Origin: a bacterium
Lineage (GTDB): Bacteria; 4484-113
Length of the DNA: 44,510 bases
Assembly (NCBI GenBank): GCA_029932365.1
Contig: JAOZQG010000006.1
Coordinates: 1 to 44,510 of the forward strand
Direction: 5' to 3'
Part shown: in pieces, positions 22,948 through 39,477 of the stretch
Position numbering within the stretch: the stretch's first letter is position 1
How the letters are laid out: every line of letters begins with the position of its first letter
Position numbers and translations under genes: made by a program
Notes under the pieces: model-generated
Database searches by the model: none
What the model was told of the DNA's origin: nothing
The model's input: only the letters and a program-made list of their open reading frames with translations

Positions 22948-22985
22948 GGGCAAACTCCTCGCCTGTGGTATTGTCGGCGGTCTTC

Positions 22986-22991: not shown

Positions 22992-23033
22992 GAATATAGC
23001 CGCTTTACCTGAAACAACGGACGGGAGGATACT

Positions 23034-23549: not shown

Positions 23550-23552
23550 GTA

Positions 23553-24167
23553 GTGGACGCAAAGCAGCGGGAAAAATCGCGCTTCTTCGACCGCGTGGCT
23601 AGGGAATGGGCGACGCACGGCTATAGCATTGACGAGCTTCGTCGCGTGACGAGGCTTATCCGGCGCAGCAAAATCCAGCGCGGGATGCGCATCCTGGAGC
23701 CCGGCTGCGGGCCGGGCCTGATAACGCCGCTGATTGCGCAATGCGTGGGCCCCGGCGGGTATATCCTGGCGCTGGATATCAGCCCGGCTATGGTGGAGCA
23801 ATGCGAAAAGCGGACGTCGGACTTCCCGCAGGTGCGAGTGGAGCACGGCGCGATTGAGGATTTTACCGCGCACGAGGGCGAGTTCGACTGCGTGTTCTGC
23901 TTCAACTCGTTTCCCCACTTCACCGACCGCGAAAAGGCGTTGCATGTGGCCGCACGTTGCCTTAGGCCCGGCGGAAGTTTCGTAATCGCACACAGCAATT
24001 CGCGCAAGCGGATAAACGAAATCCACATGCGGGTCGGCGACGCGGTAATGCACGATGCGCTGCCTAAGCCTCGCGAGCTGCAAAGGCTTGCCGAAGCGCA
24101 CGGTCTGCTCGTCACCGAAACCTGCGACGACGACGACAGCTTCCTTTTCTCCGCCGAGAAGCGATAG
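23553..24167 (+). CDS. class I SAM-dependent methyltransferase
   Basis: A 204-residue Rossmann-fold methyltransferase (Methyltransf_11/25 type). SAM-binding motif I is ILEPGCGPG, the acidic residue of motif II lies in ILALDIS, and motif IV is FDCVFCFNSFPHF. Motif VI follows at LRPGGSFVIAHS. The substrate is not evident; the N-terminal amphipathic helix (REKSRFFDRVAREWATHG) is usual in ubiquinone/menaquinone-like and small-molecule methyltransferases. GTG 23553 begins 3 nt after the DinB stop, with a TAAAAT box 5 nt before it. It is followed by the large PKD lipoprotein gene. Confidence 0.88.
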   Translation: MDAKQREKSRFFDRVAREWATHGYSIDELRRVTRLIRRSKIQRGMRILEPGCGPGLITPLIAQCVGPGGYILALDISPAMVEQCEKRTSDFPQVRVEHGAIEDFTAHEGEFDCVFCFNSFPHFTDREKALHVAARCLRPGGSFVIAHSNSRKRINEIHMRVGDAVMHDALPKPRELQRLAEAHGLLVTETCDDDDSFLFSAEKR

Positions 24168-24185
24168 GTAATCCGCGCACGATGT

Positions 24186-24191
24186 TATAAT
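24186..24191 (+). promoter_or_regulatory. -10 box of the large PKD lipoprotein gene
   Basis: TATAAT, giving a leader of about 55-60 nt before ATG 24256. The leader includes GGGGCGCATTTCCCC, a small hairpin, and AAGGG about 10 nt before the ATG. No clear -35 is found. Confidence 0.45.
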
Positions 24192-24255
24192 CACCACGCC
24201 GGGAAGTGAACACAGGGGCGCATTTCCCCCACTAAGCTTTCAAGGGCTTTTACAG

Positions 24256-27200
24256 ATGAACAGGCACATCATCCTTCTGACACTGGCGATGTGCGGACTG
24301 GCGATTGCCGCGCTACTTGCGGCCTGCCAGAGCGTCGGTCCCACAGGAAAAGCGGTCAAACGCACCGAGCCGGAAAAGACCGCCGAAGAGCTGCGCGAAG
24401 CCGAGCACGGCCCCTCCGAGCAGCGCGCAATGGTAACGCGCTTCGGCAAGGAAGTGGTTTTCCGCCACTGCAAGGTCGTGTTCCCCACGGGCGCCTTCAG
24501 CGACGAAACCTACGTCACCATCAGCTTCCCCGAGGACGCGCCGGAGGGCTTCGTCGCCGAATCCGCTTACAGCGTTATGCCCGATACGATGCCGCTGGGC
24601 AAGCCGGCGATGCTGTCTTTGCACTACTTCGACGACGATCTGAAAGAAGGCGAGGACGAAAACGACATCCAGCTCGTCCGCCTGGTTGAAGGCATCTGGA
24701 TGCCGGTCGGAGATTTCACGCTGGACGTGTACAACAACATCGCAACGACCAGCGTCAAGCGGCTGGGAGTATTCGCGCTTATGGTCGTGCCCCGGCGCAC
24801 TCCGCTGATCAATGACCCGCCGGTCGCGCGAATTACTTACGAAATAGCGCTGCCCGGCGAGGAGAAGGAAGAACCGGCCGCTGAGGAAGAACCGGCAGCA
24901 GAAGAACACCCGATAACGAAAGATGAAATACTGGAAGAAACTGAAGCGGAAACTCCGGTCCGTGAGCCCGGCGTAGAAACCTCGGAGCCGATGGAACCGG
25001 AGAAAGAAACGCCGCCCGAAGCTTCTACAGGCGTTCCGGCGGTATCCGAGCCGGTGCCCATCGGCGCGGAAGAAGAAGTGCCGCCGGACGAGGATGGCGC
25101 GACTGAGAAAGGAGCGCCTGAACGCGCCGAACCAACCGATGAGCTTGAGGACAAGGAAGTCGTCGAGCCGAAAGACACTGAAGAAAGGCGCCGCCAGAGC
25201 TTCCTGGTGGAGACGCCGAAGGAACCAGCCAAACCGGAGCCAACCATCGGCGCAACCGTGGAGTTTTCGGGCGCCGATTCTTCCGATCCCGACGGCAGGA
25301 TACTGCGCTACATCTGGGACCTTAATGCCGACGGTGTGGCCGACTACGTTTCTGGCAGCCCCGAGGTCGCTCACGTTTACGAAGTATATGGGTCGCTGCT
25401 GGCCATTCTCCAGGTGGAGGACGACGCGCAACCCGCCGGAAGAGATGTGGCCTTCGCCACCTTTGAAATTCAGCGTGATCCGCTGGCTCCCAAGCTGCCC
25501 TTCAAGGTGAACTCGGTGGCCTTCCCTGCGGAAGTAAACAGCGGCGGCAAGGTAGTATTCGGCGCAGCCGCCACCGGGGGCGAACCCCCGTATGCTTTTG
25601 GCTGGACTTTCAGCGACGGCACCACCGCCGACGAACAGGCGGTCATCCTCGTGCCAGGCAAAGCGGGAGAGCTTACGGGCAATCTAACCGTAACCGATTC
25701 GTCGGGCAGAGCCGTCCAGAGAACGGTCTCGGCGACCGTCGTGCAGCCTTCGCGCGAGCCGGCAGAAAAGCCCGAAGTGAAGGTGCAGCCCAACCGGGTC
25801 TATCTCGACGTTCCCGGAAAGGTGCAGTTTGAAGCCACGGTGAGCGGCGGCCGCGAGCCGGTGACGCTGCTGGTGGACCCGGGCTTCGGTGAACCGTTGA
25901 GTACGAAAGACAAGGCCTTTACGCTGAGCTTCGCCAACGCCGGATACTATGTCGTCACCATTACCGCAACCGACCGCACGGGCCGAGGGGCAAAGACTTT
26001 CGTGCCCGTCGCAGTAACGCCGGGTGAAGTCGGCGTCTCGGGGGTCGACACCGGCACCGGCAGGCTCTCGTTCGCCTTTGAATACCAAAAAGACGGTTGG
26101 ACCGTAAGCTTCAAAGCCGCGGGCGCAGGCAAAAAGGCCAAACTGCACTGGGAGTTCGGTGACGGAACCGCGAGCGACGAGCGCAATCCAGGCAAAACCT
26201 ACGCGCGCGCAGACGAATACCGGGTGCGCCTTACCGTAGACGACGGATTCGAACGCCGCTTTGTAGAGCGGACGGTGCCCGTTGGCGGAGGCGAACTGGC
26301 AGCGGCGATTGACACTCCATCTACGGTGCGCGGCATGGTTCCGCTCAGCCTTACTCCGCAGGCCGTCGTCACAGGCGGCGAGTTCCCGTTGTTCTATCAC
26401 TGGAAGCTGGGCGAGCTTTTCAGCGAAGAAGAGTACCCCGAATTGGTGCTGACGAAGCCTGGCACTTACAAACTGCAGCTCACGGTCGGCGACGCCAGCG
26501 GCGACACCTACGACACATACCCGGTAACAATTAAAGCGAGCAAAACTCCCAAGAAATTCCGGTATCCGGTTGCGTACTTCGTCGAAACCGACGATGGTGA
26601 CATAGAAGTAAAGCTCTCCGAATACGACGGGAGCGGCGAATGCACCTTCACCCTGGGCCCGGAGAATCCCACCGGCGTCGCGCTGGCGCCCCAGGGCACC
26701 GCAATCGCCCTGCTCGCGGACAAGGGCTTTGTCGTATACGACCTGGCCGGCGGCCGCGAGATATTTAGCTTCACACCCAGCCGGGGTAGCATCAACGAAG
26801 TGCTACTCACCAGCGCGCAGGAGCTTTTCGCGTTCAACATTGAAGGCGACAAGGGCGTACGGGGCTACATCCGCAGCGAGGCTTCGGGCATCCTCCCGCT
26901 CAGCGACCGCATCGAACGTGTGGTTGACATAACGCCGGACGGCTCGGCGGTTCTCCTCGCGTCGGATAAGGGCGTCCGGATGTGTAAGGTGGACGTATTC
27001 ACTGGAGGCCTTAGCGACAGCGTCGAGCTTTTCGGCGAGGCGACAGAAGGAGTGCTTACTTCCGACGCCCGCAGCGCATTCCTTCTGGGGCTGGACGGCG
27101 ACGTGTACCAGGTGGAGACCGAAACGGGCGAGCAATGGCGGCTGACCCACGACGGGACGGCGAAACACTCCCTTCAGATAAGCGACGACGGTAAAACTAT

Positions 27201-27543
27201 CGCGTATTCGCTGGAGGGAGGCGACATCATCGCTATTCAGCCAAGAGGGGAAGCACCCGGTATGCCGGTAAACCTGACCGCGCTCAACGGCTTCGCCAGC
27301 CGCAATTGGAAGCTCTCGCCCGACGGACGGCTTATCCTCGCCTATGGTTCGCGGGACAACACCAGCGGCCTGTATATGCTCAACCTAGCGGTTGATGTGC
27401 AGTCGGCCGGTACCGACGAACTCGCACCCAGCTTCTACGCCGAGAGCACTCCGACCTTCACCATGAGCGGGCACAAAGATCGCTTCGACGTGCTGCTCAC
27501 TCAGAAGAAGCCCGCTCCGGAGGAAGAAGAGACAGCACTCTGA
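24256..27543 (+). CDS. large lipoprotein with PKD domains and a C-terminal beta-propeller
   Basis: The 1095-residue product has a lipoprotein signal with lipobox LLAAC (C24). Residues 65-175 form a beta-sandwich resembling ZU5-type domains (VVFPTGAFSDETYVTISF). Residues 195-335 are a Glu/Pro-rich linker. At least four, probably five, PKD-like domains follow (about 328-410, 415-500, 508-590, 604-678 and 680-762). The first and fourth are the clearest, with DSSDPDGRILRYIWDLNADG and WEFGDGTASDE. Residues 765-1085 are repeated beta units resembling a TolB/WD40-type propeller. It is probably exported and lipid-anchored. Its tail overlaps the CYTH gene by 47 bp on the opposite strand. Confidence 0.85.
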   Translation: MNRHIILLTLAMCGLAIAALLAACQSVGPTGKAVKRTEPEKTAEELREAEHGPSEQRAMVTRFGKEVVFRHCKVVFPTGAFSDETYVTISFPEDAPEGFVAESAYSVMPDTMPLGKPAMLSLHYFDDDLKEGEDENDIQLVRLVEGIWMPVGDFTLDVYNNIATTSVKRLGVFALMVVPRRTPLINDPPVARITYEIALPGEEKEEPAAEEEPAAEEHPITKDEILEETEAETPVREPGVETSEPMEPEKETPPEASTGVPAVSEPVPIGAEEEVPPDEDGATEKGAPERAEPTDELEDKEVVEPKDTEERRRQSFLVETPKEPAKPEPTIGATVEFSGADSSDPDGRILRYIWDLNADGVADYVSGSPEVAHVYEVYGSLLAILQVEDDAQPAGRDVAFATFEIQRDPLAPKLPFKVNSVAFPAEVNSGGKVVFGAAATGGEPPYAFGWTFSDGTTADEQAVILVPGKAGELTGNLTVTDSSGRAVQRTVSATVVQPSREPAEKPEVKVQPNRVYLDVPGKVQFEATVSGGREPVTLLVDPGFGEPLSTKDKAFTLSFANAGYYVVTITATDRTGRGAKTFVPVAVTPGEVGVSGVDTGTGRLSFAFEYQKDGWTVSFKAAGAGKKAKLHWEFGDGTASDERNPGKTYARADEYRVRLTVDDGFERRFVERTVPVGGGELAAAIDTPSTVRGMVPLSLTPQAVVTGGEFPLFYHWKLGELFSEEEYPELVLTKPGTYKLQLTVGDASGDTYDTYPVTIKASKTPKKFRYPVAYFVETDDGDIEVKLSEYDGSGECTFTLGPENPTGVALAPQGTAIALLADKGFVVYDLAGGREIFSFTPSRGSINEVLLTSAQELFAFNIEGDKGVRGYIRSEASGILPLSDRIERVVDITPDGSAVLLASDKGVRMCKVDVFTGGLSDSVELFGEATEGVLTSDARSAFLLGLDGDVYQVETETGEQWRLTHDGTAKHSLQISDDGKTIAYSLEGGDIIAIQPRGEAPGMPVNLTALNGFASRNWKLSPDGRLILAYGSRDNTSGLYMLNLAVDVQSAGTDELAPSFYAESTPTFTMSGHKDRFDVLLTQKKPAPEEEETAL

Positions 27544-28150
27544 GCCCGTAACGGTACTTGGACTCGGTTGAGGGCGTCAGGGAGTAACGCTCCTTGATGA
27601 AATCCTTCACCTCAACGAGCTTTTCCATCCCGATGCCGTGGTCCTCTATCTCCAGGTAGTTTACGCTGTGAATCTTACCCGAATCGGACGGATCGCGGAA
27701 CTTCACGTTATCATACGCGACGTTGAGGTTTTCGCTCTCGGTGCCCAGGTCGAACTCCTTGCTGGTCTCCTCGGAAACCAGTTGGAAGAACGCGGGCTCG
27801 TTTACGAGAAACCTGGTCAGACCGCTGAAGAATCTCACGACCTGGTCAAACTCGCGAACGCCCACCTTGAGCTTCAGTTCTTCGCGGATCAGTATATCCG
27901 GGTGCTTCTCTAGGGGGAATTTGAAAGTCAGACGGGTACCCTCGCCCGCGTAAATATTGTCCAGCTTGCGCCGCAAGCGGAACGAAAGGTTGTTCCGCAG
28001 CAGGTAATAGCTTTTGGTATCCACGTAGATGTCGCGCACCTGCGTCATACCGTTGCTCAGCAACGGCAGGTGGAAACGGTCCGAGATTGTCTCCACCGCT
28101 TCGCTCACGTCAAAATTGGCGTCGGGAAATTCTACTTCAATCTCCTTCAT
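27497..28150 (-). CDS. CYTH-like / triphosphate tunnel domain protein
   Basis: This 217-residue protein follows the CYTH tunnel-fold pattern: DIYVDTKSYYLLRNNLSFRLRRK (the Tyr-Phe/Leu-Asp and Leu-Arg-x-Arg part), a LTFKFP strand, REELKLKV, LEIEDHG and ESKYRYGL at the end. CYTH enzymes hydrolyse inorganic or nucleoside triphosphate or cyclise ATP. The N-terminal ExExK motif is altered to EIEVE (the lysine is replaced), so catalysis is uncertain. AGGAG lies 6 nt before ATG 28150. The stop lies inside the PKD lipoprotein gene on the other strand. Confidence 0.8.
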   Translation of the reverse strand: MKEIEVEFPDANFDVSEAVETISDRFHLPLLSNGMTQVRDIYVDTKSYYLLRNNLSFRLRRKLDNIYAGEGTRLTFKFPLEKHPDILIREELKLKVGVREFDQVVRFFSGLTRFLVNEPAFFQLVSEETSKEFDLGTESENLNVAYDNVKFRDPSDSGKIHSVNYLEIEDHGIGMEKLVEVKDFIKERYSLTPSTESKYRYGLRVLSLLPPERASSE

Positions 28151-28216
28151 AGTCGGCTCCTGTTTGGGTTGGGTATTCTACACCATAATAGTGCCAGTCA
28201 ATTGTTAGCGGATGAT

Positions 28217-28237
28217 GAGGAAACCGAAAATTTCCTC
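28217..28237. repeat. inverted repeat GAGGAAA-N7-TTTCCTC
   Basis: Perfect 7-bp arms in the 216-bp divergent region between the CYTH gene and the cohesin-like lipoprotein gene, followed by T-rich TATTTTC on the plus strand. It could be an operator for either gene or a hairpin, and no upstream plus-strand gene needs a terminator here. Function unknown. Confidence 0.35.
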
Positions 28238-28304
28238 GGGTATTTTCAGTAAACGCGGCACGCCATAATCGGGTAAAATAGCGAGGAGAGACGAACAAGG
28301 TTCG

Positions 28305-28333
28305 TTGATATTCGTCTGAGTAGGTGATAGACT
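28305..28333 (+). promoter_or_regulatory. promoter of the cohesin-like lipoprotein gene
   Basis: TTGATA (28305-28310), 17 bp, TAGACT (28328-28333). It predicts a start at about 28340 and a leader of about 27 nt containing AGGAG about 10 nt before ATG 28367. Confidence 0.55.
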
Positions 28334-28366
28334 GAAATCTGGTAACATACCAGGAGCGGCTTAGCT

Positions 28367-30514
28367 ATGCGCAAACTGCATTTATTTCATGCGATTGCCT
28401 TGTTGATCATCTTCGCTGCGGCTGTGGCGTGCACCAGCAGCAGCACCACAACGCGAACCAATCCCAGCTACGACCAGGACTACAGCAGGTCGACCCGGTC
28501 GCGTCAGAGCAGCCAGGCATCATCCCAGGAGGGCTTTCCGGAAGAGACCTACCGGCCGCCGATAACCCTGATGATGTTGTCAATGATGACCGGAGAGGTG
28601 ATTGAAGGTGAATCCTATGCGGTTATCGCGGTGGTGGATAATCCTGAGAACCGTGACCTGACGTACAGGTGGTCGGTGGAAGACGGCAAGCTAGGAGAGC
28701 TTCCCGAAAGCATGCGGGCCGATGTGCTCGGTTTTGAAGAACAGCTGCGCAGCAACAAGGGCATCTCCGGCCGAGCTCCTACAGGTGAAGCCGTTGCGGG
28801 AGAAGATACTCCCGCGCCTGGCGCGGAAGGCATGGTAGGAGCTCCGACAGGGGAATCGGCCGCAGCGAAACCCGCTGGCCCACGCTCTGGGGTAGAAGAA
28901 GCCGAGGCCAAGCCCGCTCCCAGGCCAAAAACTCCCATCGAGTCTGAACCTTCCGCGGAAGAAGAAGCCAAGGCTGAAGCTCAACCCGTAGCCACCGAAA
29001 GCACTGAAGACGAGGAAGCGGAGCAGCCGGCCGAAGAAAGCGAAGAGGAAGCACCTGCACAAGCTGCGCCCGCCGAAGAAGAGCCGGAGAAGGGCAAGTC
29101 GCAGCTGGTGGCGATGAATTTCGTCCGCTACGCCGCGCTCGGTGCCGAAGAAAACGAAGGTGACGAAAACGAGCCGGCGGAAGAACAATGGCCTGAGCCG
29201 CAGCCCAAAGACGCTGACCAGGGCGCCGCTGCGGAAGAGCTGCCCGAGCAGGTGGAGGAGACGGACAACGACGATGCCACCAAAGATACTGATGAAGAAA
29301 CCGCCGAGGAACAGCTCTCTGCGGAGGAACTGGCTGCGCGTGAAGCGATGGCCAACCAAGAAGAAGCTGAAGGCATGGTTCGGGAAGTCGGCGAATCTGC
29401 CGAGGAATTTGAAGGCTTCAAACCAACGGTGGGCGAAGGCCGGCTGGTCGAGCCTGAAGTGGAAGAGGAAGAAGGCAAAGAAGACGAATCGCTACTCGAC
29501 GCTGCGCCGTCGCTGGTCACAATCGAAACCGACAAGCCCTATGCGCTGTGGACTCCGCCGGGAATCGGCTCGTACACCATACGCTGTATCGTGCTCGACG
29601 ACAAAGGCAACGAGCTGACGCCCGAGCGCTCGTTTCCGGTAACCGTAACCAAGCCTGAGCCCAAGACGGAACTGGTTTGGAACACCTCCCAGAAGCTTTA
29701 CGAAGACGACTATCTGGTCGTAGAAGTGCGCGTGAAAAACGTGCCCAGCTTCAGCAAGGGGCTGTTTACCATCAAGTTTGACCCCACCATTCTGTCGTTC
29801 CGCCTGGTGGAAACGGGCGATTTCTTCCCCAAGGATTACCGCACTTCATTGTTCTACGCCCAGCCGCCAAACTACCCGGGCAAGGTCACTGTCGCCGTCT
29901 CGGCAGACGAAGTTGGCCTGCCCAAGGGCGATGGCGTTGTCGCTCGCACCATTTTCAAGGTCAAGGAGACGATAAACGATCCCAGCCAACTTAGCATCTC
30001 CGAAGTGATGAGCGAAGAATCGCGCTATATACTGGACGCCGAGGGAGTCAACGTGCTACCGCTGGTTACCGAACATCCCGTTTATGCTACCGAATGGACT
30101 GAACCGCCCGAACGTCCGCAGCGAACGCGCACCGAGACAGCGAGCCGGGGCGGCGTGCCCTCCGCGCCCGAGCCACCCAGCCCGGCGCAGAGCTCCGGCG
30201 GCGCCGGCGGCAAAGGTGGAACGGTCCCCGCGTCGGGCGAAGGCACGCAAAGCGAAATAGCTTCGCAAGGCGGTATTGCCAGGCTCAAGGGAGGAGAATC
30301 CCCAAGCGAGGGGACAGGTGATTCCGTGGGAACAGTCCAGGCTCCGGAAGGAAGTGAATCGGGACTTATGTCAGTAGAGGAAAGAATCGCAGCACTGGAG
30401 GAGGAGCGGAGCCGCGTTGAGGCCAACGAAAACATCCCGGAGGAAGACCGGCAACGGATTCTGGCTGATCTCGACCGAAGGCTACAGGAACTGCGAGAGG
30501 GCGGCACAGAGTAA
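28367..30514 (+). CDS. lipoprotein with cohesin-like domain and acidic linker
   Basis: The 715-residue product has a signal peptide with lipobox AAVAC (C22). A Ser/Thr/Gln spacer and a beta-rich domain (about 65-115) come first. A very long Glu/Ala/Pro-rich linker (about 125-370) follows, then a short beta domain (375-430). A cohesin-like domain lies at about 435-573: VEVRVKNVPSFSKGLFTIKFDP, LSFRLVETGDFFP, then GKVTVAVSADEVGLPKGDGVVARTIFKV, the normal order of cohesin strands. The tail is Gly/Pro-rich with a terminal coiled coil (SVEERIAALEEERSRVEA). Cohesins bind dockerins, and a dockerin-like domain is encoded at 31854-35525. Binding is not proven. Confidence 0.82.
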   Translation: MRKLHLFHAIALLIIFAAAVACTSSSTTTRTNPSYDQDYSRSTRSRQSSQASSQEGFPEETYRPPITLMMLSMMTGEVIEGESYAVIAVVDNPENRDLTYRWSVEDGKLGELPESMRADVLGFEEQLRSNKGISGRAPTGEAVAGEDTPAPGAEGMVGAPTGESAAAKPAGPRSGVEEAEAKPAPRPKTPIESEPSAEEEAKAEAQPVATESTEDEEAEQPAEESEEEAPAQAAPAEEEPEKGKSQLVAMNFVRYAALGAEENEGDENEPAEEQWPEPQPKDADQGAAAEELPEQVEETDNDDATKDTDEETAEEQLSAEELAAREAMANQEEAEGMVREVGESAEEFEGFKPTVGEGRLVEPEVEEEEGKEDESLLDAAPSLVTIETDKPYALWTPPGIGSYTIRCIVLDDKGNELTPERSFPVTVTKPEPKTELVWNTSQKLYEDDYLVVEVRVKNVPSFSKGLFTIKFDPTILSFRLVETGDFFPKDYRTSLFYAQPPNYPGKVTVAVSADEVGLPKGDGVVARTIFKVKETINDPSQLSISEVMSEESRYILDAEGVNVLPLVTEHPVYATEWTEPPERPQRTRTETASRGGVPSAPEPPSPAQSSGGAGGKGGTVPASGEGTQSEIASQGGIARLKGGESPSEGTGDSVGTVQAPEGSESGLMSVEERIAALEEERSRVEANENIPEEDRQRILADLDRRLQELREGGTE

Positions 30515-30538
30515 CGGGTACCACCCGAGTAATCGGGT
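30515..30538 (+). terminator. hairpin after the cohesin-like lipoprotein gene
   Basis: ACCCGA-GTAA-TCGGGT is a perfect 6-bp stem (30523-30538). It competes with an upstream CGGGT/ACCCG pairing. There is no T-run, so this is weak terminator evidence. Confidence 0.3.
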
Positions 30539-30612
30539 ATCGGATGGCGCTGACGTCTCGCATCAGCTCACCCCTTCGGGTTAGTGGGAAGAAGCCGGAC
30601 GGAAATAGAAAA

Positions 30613-30714
30613 GGCGCCGGGGAATTACCGCGGCGCAGGTCACTGCCTGCTTAGGGCTGCTACCTTCCGGTCCTGACCCGGTTCGCAGCGCAACCTCGCA
30701 CAGGTTCCCCGGCT
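30613..30714 (-). ncRNA. ffs: signal recognition particle RNA (small bacterial SRP RNA)
   Basis: On the minus strand, the SRP domain IV signature is GGTCAGGACCGGAAGGTAGC, directly followed by AGCCC, the Ffh-binding GGAA tetraloop region with the symmetric and asymmetric loops. The 5' end GCCGGGGAA pairs with the 3' end TTCCCCGGC, giving the long closed hairpin of about 100 nt of small SRP RNA without an Alu domain. The 3' end runs into CGCCTTTTCTATTT, which looks like an intrinsic terminator. A TACAAT box lies upstream. The RNA works with Ffh to deliver membrane and secreted proteins, of which the window encodes many. Confidence 0.93.
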
Positions 30715-30721
30715 TAAACCT

Positions 30722-30727
30722 ATTGTA
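30722..30727 (-). promoter_or_regulatory. -10 box of the SRP RNA gene
   Basis: TACAAT on the minus strand, followed by AGGTTTA and then the paired 5' end of the RNA, the correct distance for a mature or near-mature transcript start. No clear -35 is seen. Confidence 0.55.
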
Positions 30728-30782
30728 GCAGACGAGCGTATTTGCGCATTCCCTGGGCTTGCACCATCTCAGCAGGATTTCG

Positions 30783-30812
30783 TTGCCACTTATCACTTCC
30801 TTGCCCTACAAT
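30783..30812 (+). promoter_or_regulatory. leaderless promoter of the RmlD-like gene
   Basis: TTGCCA (30783-30788), an 18-bp spacer, and TACAAT (30807-30812), followed by 7 nt and ATG 30820. The transcript would start at about the first codon, and no Shine-Dalgarno is present. Confidence 0.6.
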
Positions 30813-30819
30813 ATGAACG

Positions 30820-31692
30820 ATGCTGCTTCCCGACGAAACCGTGGTCATACTCGGCTCGGGCCAGATAGGTCGGGCGCTGTACGACGAGTGCTCGCAGAAA
30901 GAGAGCGCCGGTTGCACTATGCTGGGGCACGAAGAGGCTGACGTTACGGACCTTGAAACACTGCGCGAGCGCCTGGCAGAACTAAAGCCTACGCTTATCT
31001 TCCATACCGCGGCGTTCACCAAAGTAAACGAGTGCGAGCGCAACCCCGGGCTGGCATTCGCGGTAAACGCCCGGGGAACGGGGAATGTGATTGAAGTCGC
31101 CCGGAACCTGGATGCGCGCGTCGTCTACTTCTCCACTGATTACGTATTCCCGGGAAAGCTCGTAGGCGAGTACTGCGAAGATGACCCTCCCCAGCCGCTG
31201 AATGTCTATGGCCAAAGCAAGCTTATGGGCGAGCAAATCACAGCCGAATACGAGGGAAGCATCATAATCCGAACCGCCGAGGTCTTCGCGGCGACCGGCC
31301 GCAACTTCCCGCTGGCGATACTCGCCAAATATGGCGAGGGTCAAAAGGTCCATGTCGTGAACGACGAATATGCCACGCCGACCTATGCACCCCATTTTGC
31401 GTCGGCGGTTAAAGAGCTAATAGCTGTGGCGGAGCATCGCCTCTATCATTTGCGGGGCCCGGAGGAGCTGACATACTACGAGTTTGCGCGCCGCATCTTC
31501 GCCGCAGCCGGGCTGCCGGTTAGCGCTATCGCGGCCACGGCTACCCACAGGCTGGTGCTACCGGTAAAGCGTCCGGCGCGGGCGGTGCTTTCTGTGAAGC
31601 GCTACTTGAGCCACGAGTTGCCTTTGTTGCCTTCGCTGGATGAAGCGATAAGCGACTTCGTGCGCCTGCGCCATTCGCGGTTGGATCGGTAA
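30820..31692 (+). CDS. rfbD: dTDP-4-dehydrorhamnose reductase family protein
   Basis: This extended SDR of 290 residues resembles RmlD/RfbD, which reduces dTDP-4-keto-rhamnose to dTDP-L-rhamnose for surface polysaccharides. The NAD(P) loop is ILGSGQIGRAL. The catalytic Tyr-Lys is in STDYVF / LNVYGQSKLMGE, and HTAAFTKVNECERNPGLAFAVNARGTGN matches the family's NAAAYT-D-x-AE block. RmlA, B and C partners are not in the window, so it may act on another nucleotide sugar or be a standalone RmlD homologue such as methionine adenosyltransferase subunit-like proteins. The promoter lies 7 nt upstream, indicating a leaderless message. Confidence 0.85.
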   Translation: MLLPDETVVILGSGQIGRALYDECSQKESAGCTMLGHEEADVTDLETLRERLAELKPTLIFHTAAFTKVNECERNPGLAFAVNARGTGNVIEVARNLDARVVYFSTDYVFPGKLVGEYCEDDPPQPLNVYGQSKLMGEQITAEYEGSIIIRTAEVFAATGRNFPLAILAKYGEGQKVHVVNDEYATPTYAPHFASAVKELIAVAEHRLYHLRGPEELTYYEFARRIFAAAGLPVSAIAATATHRLVLPVKRPARAVLSVKRYLSHELPLLPSLDEAISDFVRLRHSRLDR

Positions 31693-31724
31693 CAGGCGCG
31701 CACCGCAGTATGGGGCGAATGTAC

Positions 31725-31738
31725 GGCGAAATTTCGCC
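31725..31738. repeat. palindrome GGCGAAATTTCGCC between convergent genes
   Basis: A perfect 14-bp palindrome, with an alternative longer pairing GGGCGAA / TTCGCCC (31713-31739). It lies between the stops of the RmlD-like gene and the large dockerin-like gene, where a bidirectional terminator would be expected. No T-run follows, so this is weak. Confidence 0.3.
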
Positions 31739-31853
31739 CTGATTGAATCTTAACTTGCGCTCGGGTTGATGCGCGGCCGCGCTTAGCCGCATCCTCCCGC
31801 TGTATCTGCAACCCAAACTAAAGCTTTCCGCGTCCCGGTTCTCTTGAGCCCTG

Positions 31854-34800
31854 TCAGTTCATAAACGATACGTAGAGATTATCGTCCATCACCAGCGAGA
31901 AGACCGGTCTGCGACTTTCGCCAACGTCTCTCATCTCCATTGAAAGGTACCTGCCGGCACCGCCCAAAGCGGGCTGCACGCTGTAAATGTAGTAGTTGCC
32001 GGGATGCAGGAGGTTCTCGATGGCCAGACGGCCTGCGTTCAACGTCTGATTGTAGGTCGAAGCGAATATCATCAAACTGGACATAACGATGTCGGTGTAA
32101 TAGCCCGTGTCGTGCGCGGTCTGAGCATCCACCGGGCTGAATGTCCATCCGGGAATTCCGTCCTCAACATCTCTGCGGGCCACCCAGAACGAGGAGTCCT
32201 CTTCACGGCGGAAGGCTATACGCGGTAGCCAGACGGGGCTTCCCTCATACTCAGTTTCCCAGATGCATAAGCTGACGTTGGTCACCAAGTCGGAGTCGCC
32301 CGCACGGAGTCCCAGTCGCCAGTCCGCCTCTGCGTTGCGCAGTATCCAGGAAAGCCGACCGCTGGGGTCATCGGGGTCGCCGTAGGCGATAGTGGCCATC
32401 TCGTGCGCCGGCTCACCCTCCAAGGAGAAATAACCGTACGCCAGAGAGGGCCTGGCGCCGTCCTGGTCGGGACCGCCGCCCGCTGAAATGCCGCCCAGCA
32501 CTTCAATCTGCCATCCCCCGCTGTTCCAGGCGAACCGGAGCACATCATCATCCTCCTCGCTGGCAGCGCTCCACGAAAGATAGGCGACTGAGGGTGTATC
32601 CGTAGAATCAAATGCCAGCGACGGATTGACGAAAACAATGCTCTCCCCGCCATCGTCCACCAGGTCCGGCGCGGCCCAGTCACCTGGGGAGTTGCGTTTC
32701 ACGTGCTCAACTGTCGTATAAGGCGTGAGAGGGCTTTCATCGTACTCGTGTGTGTTGTTAATAAACGCGATGTGCGGCACGTCCGCGCTGTCAAACATAA
32801 GTGACGGCATTTTCCCCCGCGACTCGTCGGGCAGGCCACCGCAGACTGTCTCCGTTACCCAGTCACCGGCTTCGTTGGTGGCGTAACGCAGCTCGTGTAC
32901 GAATTGCCCTGACGATACCTCGTTCGCAACCGTGTATGCGATGCCGACTGAGTTGTCGCTTGCCACGTCTACACTCGTGTATTGAACGGGCAGCGCGTCA
33001 TCATCCAGAAGCTCGTAATCGTAAGTAATACCCGGACGAGGAATCGCCGTGTAATATACCGAATTGTAGTCTTCGTTGGGGCCTCCTTCCAGTTCCGGCC
33101 AGTTATCCAGCGCCCGCACGGTGAAGCTGTAAACCGTATTGTTCATCAGGCCTTCCACTCGGTAGTAAAGGTCGCCGGTAACCGCCGTTCGGCCGTCAAG
33201 GATGGCTTGCGCATAATCGGAGATGCCCTGGTCGCCCGGCTCCCAGTAGACCCGGTAGCTTACCGGCGGCGACTGCGCGTCGGTGGCGGAATTCCAGGAT
33301 GTGTCAGCGTAACCGTTGCCGCCGGAAGCGAACTGAATGCCTGTTGTGGTGTCCCATTCGGGTGGCCGGTTATCCAGCCCCACACCGGGAATTGCGGTCA
33401 ACGTTTCGGCATTCTTATCTTCGTTGCCGGTGGCGTCTTTGGCGCGGACTACGAAGGCGTACTCCTGGCCGTCGGTTAGACCATTGATATAGGTGGGCGG
33501 GAAGTGGGTGTCAACTTCAACGGAGCCGGTAGCGGCCGAGAAATCGACCGCGTCACCCTCCTGATAGTAAATGGTATATACAACCGGCGGGCTGTCCTCA
33601 TCGCTCGCGGCTCCAAACTCCACGCGCACGGAATCTTCCCCAGGCATCGCATTTGTCACTCCTGTCGTATCGTCCCACGTTGGCGGGGAAACATCACCCA
33701 TATCGGGTCCGGGCGTGACTTGGAGGGTATTCGTGTTCGCATCCTCATTGGGGCTGATCGGCGGGTCGTAGCGGTCGGCGCTGTCAATTGCTCGCACTCC
33801 AACGGTGTATTGTGAGTCGTTCACCAGCCCGGTTACGGAAAAGGGAGAGCTGTCCGCTTCCAGGAACGACGCGGTATCAAACTGGAGTGTTGCGCCTTGC
33901 CTGAGGTACACCCGATAGCGCACAGGCGGCGACTGGGCGTCCACAGCGTGCCCAAAGGTCACGCGGAAACCGCCGTCTCCAGGCTCAACGGAGACGATAC
34001 CCACCGTGTCCGCCCATACGGGCGGAGTGAAATCGTTGCGGGCCGCCGCGCTGGGCGTGCAGGTCTTCACGGCGTCCGCGACCGGCGAGGTCCGGTTCTC
34101 GGCTTCGTCTTCCGCGGCCAGATACGCTGCATAAGTTGTCCCGTTAGCCAGGTCTTCCCAGATGTACGGCGGGTCCACATCGGTAACCTCGATAATTGTT
34201 GAATTGTCAAGGTCTATTCCCGCGTCACCGCCCGGCGGGCCTAGGTAGAGAAAATAGCGGAGCCGGTCCTGAGGCGTGACGTTGTCAACGGCGTTCCGCC
34301 GATAGACTATCTTCGCCCGGCCGTCACCGGCGTCCATAAAGGTAATGCCCTTGTACGGGTTGGTCGGCGCACCCGGGCCGTGCGGGGGTGTTGTGTCCTC
34401 GCCCTGATCGATGGTGAGAGTCTCGGTAACATCGTAGCCACTTTCGCCCTCATCTCCTACGGGGACGAGGCGATAGATGAAAGTGGTGCTGGTCTCAACG
34501 ATGTCATCCAGCAGCGTATTGTCCTGGTAGAAGTAAGCGGCGGGCTGGAAGGGCTCGGTTACCGCCCGTTCAATAGACATTTCCGATCCCGGGTCGTCCA
34601 TATTCACCAGCAGCTTTTCGTCTATCTCAGGATGGCCTTCCACGCTGCGGTAGATGTTGTATCCGTCAAGAGTCGTGCCGTAGTGCATGGCTATAGGTGT
34701 TATCTCGGCGATGCTGACGCTACCGTCCGTAGCGCCCGCGCGGTCTATGAAGCCCTCAGAGACGTCATTACCCAGGCCGTCGCCCACGTTTCCTCCATAG

Positions 34801-35525
34801 TAAATGGCGACAGGGGTGATGTCGGAGATGCCGACCGTGCCGTTATTGTCGTAGTCGCCGCGCAACTGGTCGTTCCAGGAAAGCCGCGCGGCTTCGTCGC
34901 CGAAAGATTCGACATTGTAGTCTTCCAGCAGCAGCGCGGCTTCGCCGGCCGTAGCGCTCACGGCGCGGCTGCCGGCGGCCTGGCCGGGGGAAAACGCCAG
35001 CTCGGCAACCAATCCGCCGCCGGAGATTAGCCCTTTATCCTGAGGGCGCACCCGGGCCAGCCCGAAGGGCAGCGTGCCGGCGAATTTCTTGACCGCCAGA
35101 AAGATGCTCTCGTCTCTGCCGCCGTAAAGCGAGCCGGGAAGTATTTCGCGCAGCTTCCATTCGTCCGGATTGTATTTGAGCACGAACAGGCTGGCCGCGG
35201 AATCCGTTAGATCCTGTGCGTAGACCGACACGAAAGTGTCCCCGTTCATTAGCGTGCGCACCGCGAAGTCGTAGTACTTGCGGTCCTCCGGGGCGATCTC
35301 CCCCCACATGTCCAGAACAAAAAGGGAGAAGCCTTCGTGGTTTATCGACTTGGCGGGATCGTAAACCTTCAGTTCTCGGGCCAAAGAGTCCGGCGCGGCC
35401 TGACCAAGGATACCCGAGCGTAGCGTAGTTGTTGGCGGCGCGCCGCTGCGCCCGCTGCCGCACGAAAATAGGATAACCAGCAGCAGAAATACGCAGGCTA
35501 CCGTCGAATGCTTTATTAAAGCCAT
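31854..35525 (-). CDS. giant lipoprotein with dockerin-like domain, FN3-like repeats and beta-propeller-like tail
   Basis: The 1223-residue product has a signal peptide with lipobox LFSC (C22). A dockerin-like module lies at residues 223-284: the calcium loop DYDNNGTVGISD has Asp/Asn at positions 1, 3, 5 and 12, followed by ITPVAIYYG. A second half (DGSVSIAEITPIAMHYG) lacks the first two ligands. Fibronectin-III-like domains follow, including three close repeats at about 501-607, 614-714 and 721-828. The C-terminal 380 residues are beta-rich (propeller-like). GGTGA lies 5 nt before ATG 35525. It is probably exported and lipid-anchored. Confidence 0.85.
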   Translation of the reverse strand: MALIKHSTVACVFLLLVILFSCGSGRSGAPPTTTLRSGILGQAAPDSLARELKVYDPAKSINHEGFSLFVLDMWGEIAPEDRKYYDFAVRTLMNGDTFVSVYAQDLTDSAASLFVLKYNPDEWKLREILPGSLYGGRDESIFLAVKKFAGTLPFGLARVRPQDKGLISGGGLVAELAFSPGQAAGSRAVSATAGEAALLLEDYNVESFGDEAARLSWNDQLRGDYDNNGTVGISDITPVAIYYGGNVGDGLGNDVSEGFIDRAGATDGSVSIAEITPIAMHYGTTLDGYNIYRSVEGHPEIDEKLLVNMDDPGSEMSIERAVTEPFQPAAYFYQDNTLLDDIVETSTTFIYRLVPVGDEGESGYDVTETLTIDQGEDTTPPHGPGAPTNPYKGITFMDAGDGRAKIVYRRNAVDNVTPQDRLRYFLYLGPPGGDAGIDLDNSTIIEVTDVDPPYIWEDLANGTTYAAYLAAEDEAENRTSPVADAVKTCTPSAAARNDFTPPVWADTVGIVSVEPGDGGFRVTFGHAVDAQSPPVRYRVYLRQGATLQFDTASFLEADSSPFSVTGLVNDSQYTVGVRAIDSADRYDPPISPNEDANTNTLQVTPGPDMGDVSPPTWDDTTGVTNAMPGEDSVRVEFGAASDEDSPPVVYTIYYQEGDAVDFSAATGSVEVDTHFPPTYINGLTDGQEYAFVVRAKDATGNEDKNAETLTAIPGVGLDNRPPEWDTTTGIQFASGGNGYADTSWNSATDAQSPPVSYRVYWEPGDQGISDYAQAILDGRTAVTGDLYYRVEGLMNNTVYSFTVRALDNWPELEGGPNEDYNSVYYTAIPRPGITYDYELLDDDALPVQYTSVDVASDNSVGIAYTVANEVSSGQFVHELRYATNEAGDWVTETVCGGLPDESRGKMPSLMFDSADVPHIAFINNTHEYDESPLTPYTTVEHVKRNSPGDWAAPDLVDDGGESIVFVNPSLAFDSTDTPSVAYLSWSAASEEDDDVLRFAWNSGGWQIEVLGGISAGGGPDQDGARPSLAYGYFSLEGEPAHEMATIAYGDPDDPSGRLSWILRNAEADWRLGLRAGDSDLVTNVSLCIWETEYEGSPVWLPRIAFRREEDSSFWVARRDVEDGIPGWTFSPVDAQTAHDTGYYTDIVMSSLMIFASTYNQTLNAGRLAIENLLHPGNYYIYSVQPALGGAGRYLSMEMRDVGESRRPVFSLVMDDNLYVSFMN
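33042..34025 (-). repeat. three tandem FN3-like repeats within the giant lipoprotein gene
   Basis: At protein level three units of about 100 residues share the consensus PP-x-W-D/A-x-T-x-G near the start and D-x-x-SPPV-x-Y-x-(V/I)-Y-x-x-G 30 residues later. Examples are DAQSPPVRYRVYLRQG, DEDSPPVVYTIYYQEG and DAQSPPVSYRVYWEPG. They are diverged copies, consistent with old duplication rather than recent DNA-level expansion. Confidence 0.75.
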
Positions 35526-35550
35526 CTATTTCACCCCCGATACCTGTTTG

Positions 35551-35556
35551 ATTATA
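35551..35556 (-). promoter_or_regulatory. -10 box of the giant lipoprotein gene
   Basis: TATAAT on the minus strand, with a leader of about 20 nt that includes GGGGGTGA before ATG 35525. No good -35 is seen. The divergent promoter at 35570-35598 begins 14 bp away, so the two may influence each other. Confidence 0.5.
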
Positions 35557-35569
35557 CCATCGGGTATCG

Positions 35570-35598
35570 TTGACTCCCGTCTGGGTGAAGGCTACAAT
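35570..35598 (+). promoter_or_regulatory. leaderless promoter of the secreted protein gene at 35605
   Basis: TTGACT (35570-35575), a 17-bp spacer, and TACAAT (35593-35598), then CACCGT and ATG 35605. This is the clearest leaderless promoter in the window, as both hexamers are near consensus and the gap to ATG is 6 nt. Confidence 0.75.
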
Positions 35599-35604
35599 CA
35601 CCGT

Positions 35605-36189
35605 ATGAGAGCAGCGTTTACAAGGGGCAGGCTGCCGGTCGCAGCGCTAATTGCCGTCTTCCTGACGCTTCTTGCTCCGGCTGCGCGAAGCGTTCACGCG
35701 CAGGATTCCTGGCTCGGTGACCCGCTAGACCGGGCGGTAACTCATGCCGCGCGCTACTTCGAGTGCAACGGCACGTACCAGGAGCGATTTGATACCTGGT
35801 GGCTATCCACCGCTAATCCCTTCAAGTTCCGGCGGTACTTCACGGGCACCTGGTATTTCGACGGCGTCCAGGTCTCCTCAATTGAGGGGAATAGCTTCAT
35901 TCTTCGCATGGATTTTGATGTGTACACGAACTCCAGGGAATCCGGCGGCAAGCCCACTGCGGCAACGGTTGACCTTATCGTGCAGAATCCCAACTCGGAG
36001 GAGGAGCTGGAGATTCTGAACGTGCGAGTCGAGATGAACAAAGACGAGCTGCCCATTCCAACGTACGTCTACGTGCCCAAGAGCCTGCTGACCGATGACG
36101 GTCGCGTGGTTGTAGAGCTTCATGGTCTGGGCCAGATTGGGATCGGCCGCTCCCGTTTGCGCCTGCTGGCTCCCCTAGAACGCTACTGA
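35605..36189 (+). CDS. secreted protein of unknown function
   Basis: A 194-residue protein from ATG 35605; the track's earlier start would fall inside the promoter. A typical Sec signal peptide (residues 1-32, LPVAALIAVFLTLLAPAARSVHA, then QD) is followed by a soluble domain with alternating strands (YFTGTWYFDGVQV, FILRMDFDVYTN, AATVDLIVQNPN). The family is not recognised. The pattern FTGTWYFDGVQVSSIEGN with a later long strand-rich half could be a small beta-barrel or jelly-roll domain. The gene for a diacylglycerol-kinase-like protein starts 6 nt after its stop, so they form an operon. Confidence 0.75.
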   Translation: MRAAFTRGRLPVAALIAVFLTLLAPAARSVHAQDSWLGDPLDRAVTHAARYFECNGTYQERFDTWWLSTANPFKFRRYFTGTWYFDGVQVSSIEGNSFILRMDFDVYTNSRESGGKPTAATVDLIVQNPNSEEELEILNVRVEMNKDELPIPTYVYVPKSLLTDDGRVVVELHGLGQIGIGRSRLRLLAPLERY

Positions 36190-36195
36190 GTTTCA

Positions 36196-37095
36196 ATGGC
36201 TGCCGCCGCACGTTTTACCGGCGAACGGTGCCTGGGAATTATCTCACCGTCGGCGCGTCCGCTCTCGGACGTCCTGCGAAAGCGCCTGGAGGTTAAGCTC
36301 GGAAAGCTCGCAGTGATATCGCCAGGGAACGTGGAGGAGCTGCACGATACAGTAGCGCGCTCCAAAGATGAGTACCCGCTCGTCCTTGTTATCGGAGGCG
36401 ACGGCACAATAAGCCAGGTCGTCCAGCATCTGGACCTCGAGTCGCAGATACTGGCGATTCTGCCTTCGGGCACGGGCAACGACCTGGCGCGGGGGCTTGG
36501 CTTGCCCCGCCGGACTGACTGCTACCTGAAAGCCCTGCCGGATTTCGTCCTGCGGGAGATAGATGTGTGGCTGATGGATGGCAGGCGCTTCATTAACTCC
36601 GCAGGCTTCGGGCTGGACGCGCAGGTTCTGGCCACTATGGCATCGTCCCGTGGCCTTGCCCGGCAAAATTACGTAGCCGCCTTCATTGCCACGCTGCCCG
36701 GGCTACGCCCGCTTTATGTCAGAGCTACCGGGAATGGCGAAGTATTGGTGGACGGCGACGTCTGGTGGCTCGCGGCGCTTAACTCGCCGTTCGTCGGCGG
36801 AGGGATTCCCCTGGCTCCCCGGGCGCGGCTCGACGACGGGAAGCTCGACATAGTGGCCGTCCACGCCTGCTCGAAATGGGAGCTTCTGCTCAAGCTGCCC
36901 CGCGTTACCCGGGGCCATCACCTTAAAGATCCCCGAGTATCCTGCCACCAGGCGGCCCGACTGACCGTCCAAAGCTCGCAGCAGCCCGTTGCAGCCGAGG
37001 GTGATGGCGAACTTATGACGCTGTACGAACGCCGCATTGCACTGGTTCACGCGGGCAGGCTCAGTGTCCTTTGTGCAGCGGCAGGTACACGTTGA
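36196..37095 (+). CDS. diacylglycerol kinase / YegS-like lipid kinase family protein
   Basis: A 299-residue DAGK-catalytic fold protein. The nucleotide-binding GGDGT (67-71) and the PSGTGNDLARGL segment (90-101) are the family hallmarks, followed by the C-terminal beta-sandwich with the NSPFVGGGIPLAPRARLDDGKLDI segment. Members phosphorylate diacylglycerol, sphingosine or related lipids in membrane turnover, and the substrate is not readable here. No Shine-Dalgarno is found before ATG 36196, so it may be coupled to the upstream stop 6 nt before. Its 3' end overlaps the convergent histidine kinase gene by 35 bp. Confidence 0.9.
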   Translation: MAAAARFTGERCLGIISPSARPLSDVLRKRLEVKLGKLAVISPGNVEELHDTVARSKDEYPLVLVIGGDGTISQVVQHLDLESQILAILPSGTGNDLARGLGLPRRTDCYLKALPDFVLREIDVWLMDGRRFINSAGFGLDAQVLATMASSRGLARQNYVAAFIATLPGLRPLYVRATGNGEVLVDGDVWWLAALNSPFVGGGIPLAPRARLDDGKLDIVAVHACSKWELLLKLPRVTRGHHLKDPRVSCHQAARLTVQSSQQPVAAEGDGELMTLYERRIALVHAGRLSVLCAAAGTR

Positions 37096-38650
37096 AGGCG
37101 GCCCCGCCAAGCTCGCTGGTCCGTTCGGCCATGACGACTCCTCCGAGTCGGCGGACTATCTGCTGTGTAACGTTCAGCCCCAGGCCGCTGCTGCTTTGCG
37201 GGTCTTTCGTCGAAAAGTAGGGCTCGAATATGCTGGACGTAAGGTCGCTGGGGATCCCCGGTCCTGAATCAATGATCCTCACCAGCAATATACTTGGCGC
37301 GCTGAATCTGACAAACCCGTGCGGCAGATCTCGGTGAGCCACTTCGGTAACTTCAATGCGAATACGCTTGTCCTCGGAATCCAGCATAGCCTCAAACGAG
37401 TTCTGCACGATGTTAAACAGCGCCTGGCGCAGCGAGTTGGGATCGGCATCGACAAATCCGACGGCTTTCATGCTGAGTTCCAGCGTAACATCCTTGGGCA
37501 CGACGAATTCCACCAGCGACGTGAAGTTTTCAAAGAAGCTCTCAACGGCCAGCTTGGAGACGCGGGGCTCGTGCAGCCGGGCATAGCTCGTGAGATTGCC
37601 TATGAGCTTAACTCCCCGGTCAACCAGACCGTTTACCTTCTGCAAATATGACGCTTCGCTGCTCTCGCTGTCGGCTTCGGACTGTAAAAGCGAGGTGACG
37701 CCTTTAATAGCGGCAAAAATGTTGTTGAACTCGTGAGCCACGCCCCGCGCGAGCATGGCAACGCTTTCGGAGCGCTGCATGAGCGTCACCGAATGCGAAA
37801 GCCGCTCTGCCAGAACGGGCTGGGATATAAGCAGGCACAGTATCGTGCGCCTGCCGGCGTCCTCCATCGGCAGCAGGCTAAACGCCAGGGTCGTATGCAT
37901 GTCGGCGCCCCTTCCCAGCGCGCCCTCAAGTTCGGTGTAGTAATCCACCGGCGGGAAATAGGCTTCCTGCCCCATGAGGGCATCCTGCACCAGGGATGCC
38001 GTTTCGGGGCGCGAGAAGTTTGAGTCCTTGCTGATGTCATATGAGGGCGAATCCGCTTCGCCCTCCAGTTTGAAAAGCTCGCGCGCCCGCGGGCTGATGT
38101 AATCCGCCTTTCCGCCGTCATCCAGCAAAAGGAAGCTGGCTTCCAGTCGTTCGAGAAGCTTGGTTGTACGGGCATCCTCCTCCAGCTGGCGCAGGACCTG
38201 CGCGAGCGGCTCCTCGCTTATGGAGAATGCGCGCGGCGCGACTTCCGCTCCCGGAGCCGCCTGAAGCAGCACTACCGTCCCGAAGAACCGGTCGTCCTGC
38301 CACAGCGGGGTAGCGGCGGTAACTAGCTCCTTTTTCGCCGCTGAAGGGGCACCGCCCTTCGCGCTGGGTACGGAAGCGTAACCGGTGAGTGTCTGGCGCT
38401 GTTCGCCGTTCTTTAACTGTCCCACTTCAATACGGGGAAACAGAGATTGAAGGCTGGCGCCGACGATGTCTACAAGCTCTCTGCCCATGAGCTCACCGAA
38501 TGCGGCCGTGGCCCACTGGCAGACCATTAGGTCATCAAAAAAGGCCATGCCCAGAACCTGGGCGTTTTCCAGATAGGCGAGCAGTTTCGCTCGCTCGGCG
38601 ATGTCATTGCTTGAGGGCAAAAGCTCCAGGAATTCGAGGAACTTCTTCAC
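37061..38650 (-). CDS. soluble PAS-domain sensor histidine kinase
   Basis: A 529-residue cytoplasmic kinase with no transmembrane segment. Two PAS-like regions (about 25-130 and 165-280) are followed by a HisKA helix with the phosphorylated His in GVAHEFNN (about H306). The HATPase_c domain has the N box NIVQNSFEAM, the G1 box DSGPGIP and the G2 box SSGLGLNV. HisKA to ATPase order is normal. GGGAGG lies 7 nt before GTG 38650. It follows the ABC-2 permease by 20 nt, so it may sense a state linked to that transporter; no response regulator is encoded in the window. Confidence 0.92.
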   Translation of the reverse strand: MKKFLEFLELLPSSNDIAERAKLLAYLENAQVLGMAFFDDLMVCQWATAAFGELMGRELVDIVGASLQSLFPRIEVGQLKNGEQRQTLTGYASVPSAKGGAPSAAKKELVTAATPLWQDDRFFGTVVLLQAAPGAEVAPRAFSISEEPLAQVLRQLEEDARTTKLLERLEASFLLLDDGGKADYISPRARELFKLEGEADSPSYDISKDSNFSRPETASLVQDALMGQEAYFPPVDYYTELEGALGRGADMHTTLAFSLLPMEDAGRRTILCLLISQPVLAERLSHSVTLMQRSESVAMLARGVAHEFNNIFAAIKGVTSLLQSEADSESSEASYLQKVNGLVDRGVKLIGNLTSYARLHEPRVSKLAVESFFENFTSLVEFVVPKDVTLELSMKAVGFVDADPNSLRQALFNIVQNSFEAMLDSEDKRIRIEVTEVAHRDLPHGFVRFSAPSILLVRIIDSGPGIPSDLTSSIFEPYFSTKDPQSSSGLGLNVTQQIVRRLGGVVMAERTSELGGAAFNVYLPLHKGH

Positions 38651-38670
38651 TCATCGGCCTCCCGGCAGGG

Positions 38671-39477
38671 TCAGTACTGCCCGAGCCTGCCGTCTATTCG
38701 GGACTTCCGCTCGCAGATAAGGAAAACGGCGGACCCGATAAGCAGATACACCGCAGAGTTTATCACAAGGCCGAGCAGCAGCCAGGGCCTGGTGCCGTCG
38801 AATACTGTGCTCTGCTCCACGACCACGGTCTTGATCAGGCTCACTCCAAGCGTAAGGGGCAGGCTGTAGAAGGCGACCTTTAGCCAGCCTGAGATCTGTT
38901 CGGCGGGGAAGTACGCGAGAAAGAAAAACGCAAATTGCATAATGGTCCCGACCTGACCGATGCGCTTGAAGACCAGCGCCAGCCCGGCGAATATCAGCCC
39001 GAAACCGTATATCCCCGCGACCGTTACAATGAGCAGAAACAGTATCTGCAAGATGTTGCCCGTACCTATAGCCAGCCACTTGCCGGTACTGGCCATTATG
39101 CAGACGAGCAGCACAACCACCATAAGCAGGCTGGTTATAAAGTCAACGGCGCTCCGTATCATCATCAGCGCCAGCACGCGCGGGTAGGTGAGGAATATCT
39201 GTTCCAACACCCCCATCTGGGCTTCGGATTCGATATGGTGTGCCAGCCGCCCCAGGGCGGATATCACGAAAAACCACATAACGTAAGAGATAATGAAGCC
39301 GTCCAGCGAGGCGCTGAGCACCTGGGGGTCCCTTACCAGCGAGCGGGCGCCGAGAAACAGACCCATAAACAGTATGTACATAATGAAAAGGCCGATAAAT
39401 AGCTCGATGGGGTATCTGAGGGCGAGCAGCACGCTGCGAACCAGCTCCGCCCGAAACAGCTTGAGCGCCCGTATCAC
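38671..39477 (-). CDS. ABC-2 type transporter permease
   Basis: The 268-residue protein has six hydrophobic segments, and its sequence layout (a long first periplasmic stretch, then FVISALGRLAHHIESEAQMGVLEQIFLTYP as the coupling-helix region) fits the ABC-2 family used for drug, lipid or polysaccharide export. GTG 39477 overlaps the ATPase stop by 4 bp (GTGA), so it is translated with its partner. The substrate is unknown. The transporter pair precedes a histidine kinase gene. Confidence 0.9.
   Translation of the reverse strand: MIRALKLFRAELVRSVLLALRYPIELFIGLFIMYILFMGLFLGARSLVRDPQVLSASLDGFIISYVMWFFVISALGRLAHHIESEAQMGVLEQIFLTYPRVLALMMIRSAVDFITSLLMVVVLLVCIMASTGKWLAIGTGNILQILFLLIVTVAGIYGFGLIFAGLALVFKRIGQVGTIMQFAFFFLAYFPAEQISGWLKVAFYSLPLTLGVSLIKTVVVEQSTVFDGTRPWLLLGLVINSAVYLLIGSAVFLICERKSRIDGRLGQY

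Follow-up and report, generated by a model that had tools for sequence, protein, structure and literature searches.

Two neighbouring lipoproteins encoded in a 44,510-nt stretch of bacterial DNA (contig JAOZQG010000006.1; the whole stretch is referred to as the window) carry a cohesin and a dockerin-like module, respectively. The window belongs to the uncultured phylum 4484-113 of the GTDB, Candidatus Niteriota, and to a draft genome of 1.94 Mb (G000); the phylum was assigned through CSMAG_2248 (taken to be G002), a sister species of the same genus, and 4484_113 (taken to be G001) of the same family, and phylum-wide counts refer to ten genomes of 4484-113. The dockerin-like module resembles type II dockerins, is predicted to interrupt a fibronectin type III (fn3) domain at its B-C loop and is present in 12-107 copies per genome in all ten genomes. 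With a probability of about one half, both window proteins are parts of a phylum-wide, non-cellulosomal cohesin/dockerin system at the outer membrane of Niteriota, in which calcium-dependent contacts would cluster lipoproteins laterally. Cohesins and dockerins outside the cellulosome are already known; the predicted insertion into fn3 and the phylum-wide amplification are the new parts.

Anatomy of the two window lipoproteins

The first F-hand loop of the lipoprotein encoded at 31854-35525, DYDNNGTVGISD (residues 224-235), precedes a helix and a second repeat. A profile built from ten dockerin-like modules of G000 (profile A1) matches this module at 34638-34886 with an E-value of 7e-31, the window module itself being one of its ten rows. 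The best match of the same profile in the PDB was chain B of 2Y3N, the type II dockerin of Cel48 from B. cellulosolvens (E = 6.9e-9), whereas calmodulins reached only 1e-5. A generic EF-hand or calmodulin identity was rejected, as calmodulins rank about three to four orders of magnitude below the dockerin in this search. A preliminary description of the window had claimed a dockerin-like F-hand, placed N-terminally in a protein which, like its neighbour, carries a lipobox, and both claims are borne out. The Pfam search that it had proposed is a different matter: Dockerin_1 (PF00404) gives no match in the window protein, and it is the profile of the paralogues that finds a real dockerin in the PDB.

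In the AlphaFold2 (AF2) model (pLDDT 83.6, pTM 0.72) two strands precede the F-hand pair and the remaining fn3 sandwich follows it. The double F-hand was also removed from 14 paralogues, the flanks were joined and the resulting profile was run against the PDB. This profile matched fn3 domains of titin and fibronectin (E = 2.2e-8 to 1e-7), and the match covers profile positions 10-66, thereby spanning the junction near position 32. By these two lines of computation, the dockerin-like module is inserted into the B-C loop of fn3. Single excised sequences fell short of Pfam fn3 (a weak match for one of ten, at E = 0.034), and an hhalign comparison of the excised set with the fn3 repeats of the window protein itself gave only P = 0.0026.

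Three features of this protein go beyond the preliminary description, namely the F-hand pair lying inside fn3, the roughly 40 such modules encoded genome-wide and a cohesin-fold domain ahead of the module (residues 61-182). Against the Pfam cohesin family PF00963 this domain remains below the curated cut-off of 24.1 bits (E = 0.03, 14.9 bits); an independent cohesin profile, built on other Niteriota proteins, scores it with 55 bits, and hhalign relates its family to the cohesins of the 28367-30514 protein with Prob 95.9. Foldseek searches with the AF2 model returned cohesins among the top matches, as well as 2W1N from C. perfringens. A profile of the divergent cohesin-fold domains (A4) found no cohesin in the PDB by sequence, and other members of the family elsewhere in the phylum exceed the PF00963 cut-off.

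For the lipoprotein at 28367-30514, the cohesin-like domain named in the preliminary description could be confirmed with the Pfam search and the structure prediction suggested there. Residues 445-543 match PF00963 above the cut-off (E = 1.6e-8, 35.3 bits), and a profile of the orthologous cohesins (A5) finds exclusively cohesins in the PDB (best E = 1.7e-4). In an AF2 model of residues 425-575 (pLDDT 77), all 50 Foldseek matches listed were PDB cohesins; for both window models the matches are mostly PDB cohesins with a probability of 1.00, in agreement with the nine-stranded cohesin jelly roll. Nine of the ten genomes contain one orthologue each, and the genome without one is 77% complete. The acidic linker of this protein is apparently inserted in an immunoglobulin (Ig)/PKD-like domain, and orthologues from other families (L146, L149, L150, L160) exhibit the same layout. 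An open frame of 222 codons on the minus strand (28691-29359), antisense to the linker, is most likely a composition artefact. The positions of all features are compiled in the table.

Table. Features of the window lipoproteins and of related loci (window positions unless a locus is given; ORF, open reading frame; aa, amino acids)
Feature	Position	Strand	Basis
PKD lipoprotein with C-terminal propeller-like repeats, upstream neighbour	24256..27543	+	PF18911, E = 2.7e-35; synteny
Cohesin lipoprotein, 715 aa	28367..30514	+	ORF; Pfam; orthologues in 9/10 phylum genomes
Its signal peptide and lipobox (AVAC, Cys22)	28367..28432	+	sequence
Its Ig/PKD-like domain, apparently interrupted by long acidic Pro/Glu-rich linker	28559..29656	+	sequence; layout matches orthologues
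Its cohesin domain	29639..30091	+	PF00963; profile A5 vs PDB; AF2 model and Foldseek
Lipoprotein, 1223 aa: cohesin-fold, dockerin-in-fn3, fn3 repeats, C-terminal beta-rich repeats	31854..35525	-	ORF; Pfam; AF2
Its signal peptide and lipobox (LFSC)	35460..35525	-	sequence
Its cohesin-fold domain, residues 61-182	34980..35345	-	cohesin profile; hhalign; AF2/Foldseek
fn3 strands A and B (predicted N-terminal half of split fn3)	34863..34934	-	AF2 model; excision test
Dockerin-like double F-hand in predicted fn3 B-C loop; loop 1 canonical, loop 2 degenerate	34680..34859	-	A1; AF2 helices; 2Y3N_B
fn3 strands C to G (predicted C-terminal half of split fn3)	34407..34664	-	AF2 model; excision test
Additional fn3 repeats	33036..34388	-	PF00041, 3 stretches, E = 4.9e-15
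182-aa cohesin-like/M6-like gene pair	L032:12766-14264 (G000:C104); L205:6393-10222 (G002:C1)

The module family and its candidate partners

A count of further cohesin and dockerin domains, also proposed in the preliminary description, yielded 40 modules in G000 at E <= 1e-5; throughout the ten genomes, nearly all copies are located close behind a lipoprotein anchor. Most of the 34 module proteins read in G000 start with a lipobox. A cohesin-fold domain stands ahead of the module in six to seven of them, the window protein included, and mostly a short helical segment in the others, while domains of a display type, such as PKD, fn3 and propeller domains, lie C-terminal to the module. Among the 25 families listed for these 34 proteins (11 rarer families stand outside the list) there was neither a recurring catalytic family nor a dockerin-bearing glycoside hydrolase. 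Five of the 34 proteins match Dockerin_1 at E <= 0.01, and G000 members on contigs C98, C35 and C4 exceed its cut-off. When 85,462 species genomes were scanned with the core pattern, the matches were almost confined to the Niteriota group; as a control, the phylum of the one match in an Anaerolineae metagenome-assembled genome (MAG) was inspected, of which three of 151 genomes contained one to five weaker matches, mostly without fn3 flanks. MAG contigs labelled as 'candidate division Kazan' and 'Bathyarchaeota' (L114/L127) carry genes identical or nearly identical to those of G000 contigs C4 and C72. Horizontal spread to these groups was rejected, since contigs so close to the Niteriota lineage are contamination; they give a hint that the lineage originates from Guaymas Basin sediment.

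Two F-hand repeats with calcium ligands at positions 1, 3, 5 and 12 are characteristic of the family, with only loop 1 being canonical in the window protein. From 93 modules, 91 first and 74 second repeats were readable. Ile10 is found in 90% of the first and 84% of the second repeats, Ala17 in 90% and 85%, and Tyr or Phe at position 20 in at least 96%, so that both repeats look alike. Asp12 occurs in 100% of both repeats, yet is nearly demanded by the search pattern. The helix positions Thr14-Pro15 are fixed across modules. Type II dockerins of B. cellulosolvens carry Met10, Ala17 and Phe20 at the corresponding places (PMC5590126). With recognition positions being nearly uniform in both repeats, a shared partner appears to be the simplest reading.

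Candidate partners are present in every genome: at E <= 0.01, PF00963 yields three to ten matches in each of the ten, and nine of the ten have matches above the cut-off. They belong to lipoproteins of the window type, small Ig-cohesin lipoproteins, FecR-cohesin proteins and chains of the order cohesin-fn3(dockerin) or cohesin-fn3(dockerin)-cohesin, and several cohesins stand immediately ahead of an fn3-dockerin module. FecR-like proteins with a C-terminal cohesin were seen in three phylum genomes (L144, L147, L148). At four loci (L138, L139, L154, L164), a cohesin or cohesin-like region is followed by the fn3-dockerin and a C-terminal cohesin, which is the nearest approach of the phylum to an adaptor scaffoldin.

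A second class of dockerins, classical and C-terminal, is found on S8 and M6 peptidases or Ig-like proteins. In two species, a gene for a 182-residue cohesin-like lipoprotein, with its PF00963 score just under the cut-off, overlaps the start of a gene for an M6-like peptidase by one base, and this peptidase has an F-hand remnant at its N terminus. These two genes are more promising as a cohesin/dockerin pair than the window neighbours.

Weighing the explanations

If the two window proteins belong to one phylum-wide system, the dockerins would bind the cohesins in a calcium-dependent manner, and the fn3 beta-sandwich would hold the dockerin, a task that falls to the X-module in type II X-dockerin pairs. 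Since each of these proteins has a lipid anchor of its own, close to the module, the dockerin is unlikely to be required for attachment and would more probably be used for lateral clustering or for tethering lipoproteins to cohesin receptors. Chains with both cohesin and dockerin may act as adaptors, the PKD, fn3 and propeller parts would face outwards, and the C-terminal dockerins of S8 and M6 peptidases may retain these enzymes in the same coat. An outer membrane is likely to be present, as Omp85 is encoded in G000. A more far-reaching version, in which the fn3-embedded dockerin is a general membrane-proximal tag of tens to more than 100 lipoproteins across the whole phylum, which a small number of cohesin receptors would sort, cluster or hold on the outer membrane so that cohesin-dockerin contacts organise a bacterial surface proteome, appears rather doubtful at present.

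Several points weigh against such a system. Pfam-detectable cohesins are far outnumbered by dockerins, and a multi-cohesin scaffoldin was not found: no chain in the loci read has more than two cohesins. The second F-hand of the window protein is degenerate, as had been noted in the preliminary description: its loop, DRAGATDGSVSIAE, comprises 14 residues and position 12 is Glu instead of Asp. The uniform residues 10, 14, 15 and 17 could be structural, and exposure of the lipoproteins on the outer-membrane surface is assumed.

In the main alternative, the F-hand pair is only a structural, calcium-stabilised insert of fn3 and a lineage-specific lipoprotein marker with no cohesin partner, the cohesin folds having different roles. 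The excess of dockerins over detectable cohesins, the degenerate second loops of some modules and a possibly structural role of the conserved Thr14-Pro15 are in line with it, as is the presence of the pair in nearly every member of the family whatever its other domains. However, the module is nearest to true dockerins and not to generic EF-hands, the recognition pattern of type II is kept in both repeats, and genuine cohesins co-occur with it in every genome, often in the same chain. A purely structural insert is regarded as possible, if on balance somewhat unlikely.

A further idea is that the cohesin clasps the dockerin of its own chain and forms a closed N-terminal head, which calcium loss or partner exchange would open. 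The window protein and five to six other G000 proteins have the cohesin-fold domain immediately ahead of the fn3-dockerin, which is compatible with such a clasp, but most family members lack a cohesin in front and the AF2 model gives no sign of docking, which makes it improbable.

The preliminary description had read the two window genes as a dedicated cohesin/dockerin pair building a surface lattice. Its idea of cohesins and dockerins forming a lipid-anchored system outside the cellulosome finds support, at a scale far beyond the one proposed, whereas the dedicated pair does not. Although both genes encode lipoproteins and lie side by side (1.3 kb apart), such a pair is very improbable, as the convergent genes are separated by an rmlD-like gene, about 40 dockerins of the genome would compete, and the gene order is not preserved in the sister species G002. 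There, the blocks corresponding to 21148-31692 and 31854-38671 are located on separate contigs, and farther across the phylum the neighbours of the cohesin lipoprotein gene are unrelated, with no dockerin gene as a constant neighbour. Pairing by adjacency was thus rejected, and the adjacency in the window is considered incidental. The cohesin gene of G002 has kept the PKD lipoprotein gene, located upstream in the window (24256-27543), as its neighbour.

If the phylum-wide system exists, it would be a form of surface assembly unrelated to cellulose. As the recognition residues are uniform and candidate cohesins are few per genome, a small binding array could directly address the role of cohesins and dockerins outside cellulosomes.

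Comparison with known systems

To our knowledge, cohesins and dockerins outside cellulosomes have almost no defined functions, and non-cellulosomal cohesin/dockerin proteins also occur in Archaeoglobus. In Niteriota, an entire lineage has amplified dockerins into a very large lipoprotein family. A literature search (most subscription journals being outside its coverage) returned no description of an fn3-inserted dockerin, nor any account of Niteriota from this point of view. Embedding in an fn3 loop would represent a new mode of presenting a dockerin, useful for protein engineering.

Outside cellulosomes, cohesins and dockerins are known from anaerobic methanotrophic (ANME) archaea (PMC9012536), Cloacimonadota (PMC8542988) and Planctomycetes (PMC6461901). 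Archaeoglobus and ANME archaea resemble Niteriota in having both domains without a cellulosome, sometimes in one chain; a lipoprotein family of 12-107 copies with fn3-inserted dockerins is not known to be reported there. The hypothetical peptidase-bearing 'planctosome' proposed for Nemodlikiaceae (PMC6461901) and the complex of Ca. Stygibacter (PMC8542988) share with Niteriota dockerins on secreted peptidases, cohesin proteins and adaptors combining dockerin and cohesin. These complexes are based on enzymes and on anchors that carry outer-membrane or C-terminal sorting domains, whereas the bulk of the Niteriota proteins are non-enzymatic lipoproteins. Glycoside hydrolases of Clostridium perfringens (2W1N) likewise have a cohesin beside fn3 in a non-cellulosomal protein; their fn3 is, however, uninterrupted, and they are no lipoproteins.

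The tested hallmarks of a cellulosome, a multi-cohesin scaffoldin and dockerins on glycoside hydrolases, are absent from the Niteriota loci and proteins covered here, and no glycoside hydrolase is among the 13 window genes scanned (21.1-43.1 kb), as the preliminary description had stated for the neighbourhood. In this, and in that no cellulase was found, the Niteriota loci differ from those of the type II pairs of cohesin and X-module-dockerin in C. thermocellum (CipA), A. cellulolyticus and B. cellulosolvens. Both share the cohesin fold, two F-hand repeats with a hydrophobic position 10, Ala17 and an aromatic position 20, and a dockerin held by a beta-sandwich partner. The Niteriota dockerin, unlike its type II counterparts, is predicted to lie inside its beta-sandwich (fn3) rather than after it, and near the N terminus of a lipoprotein.

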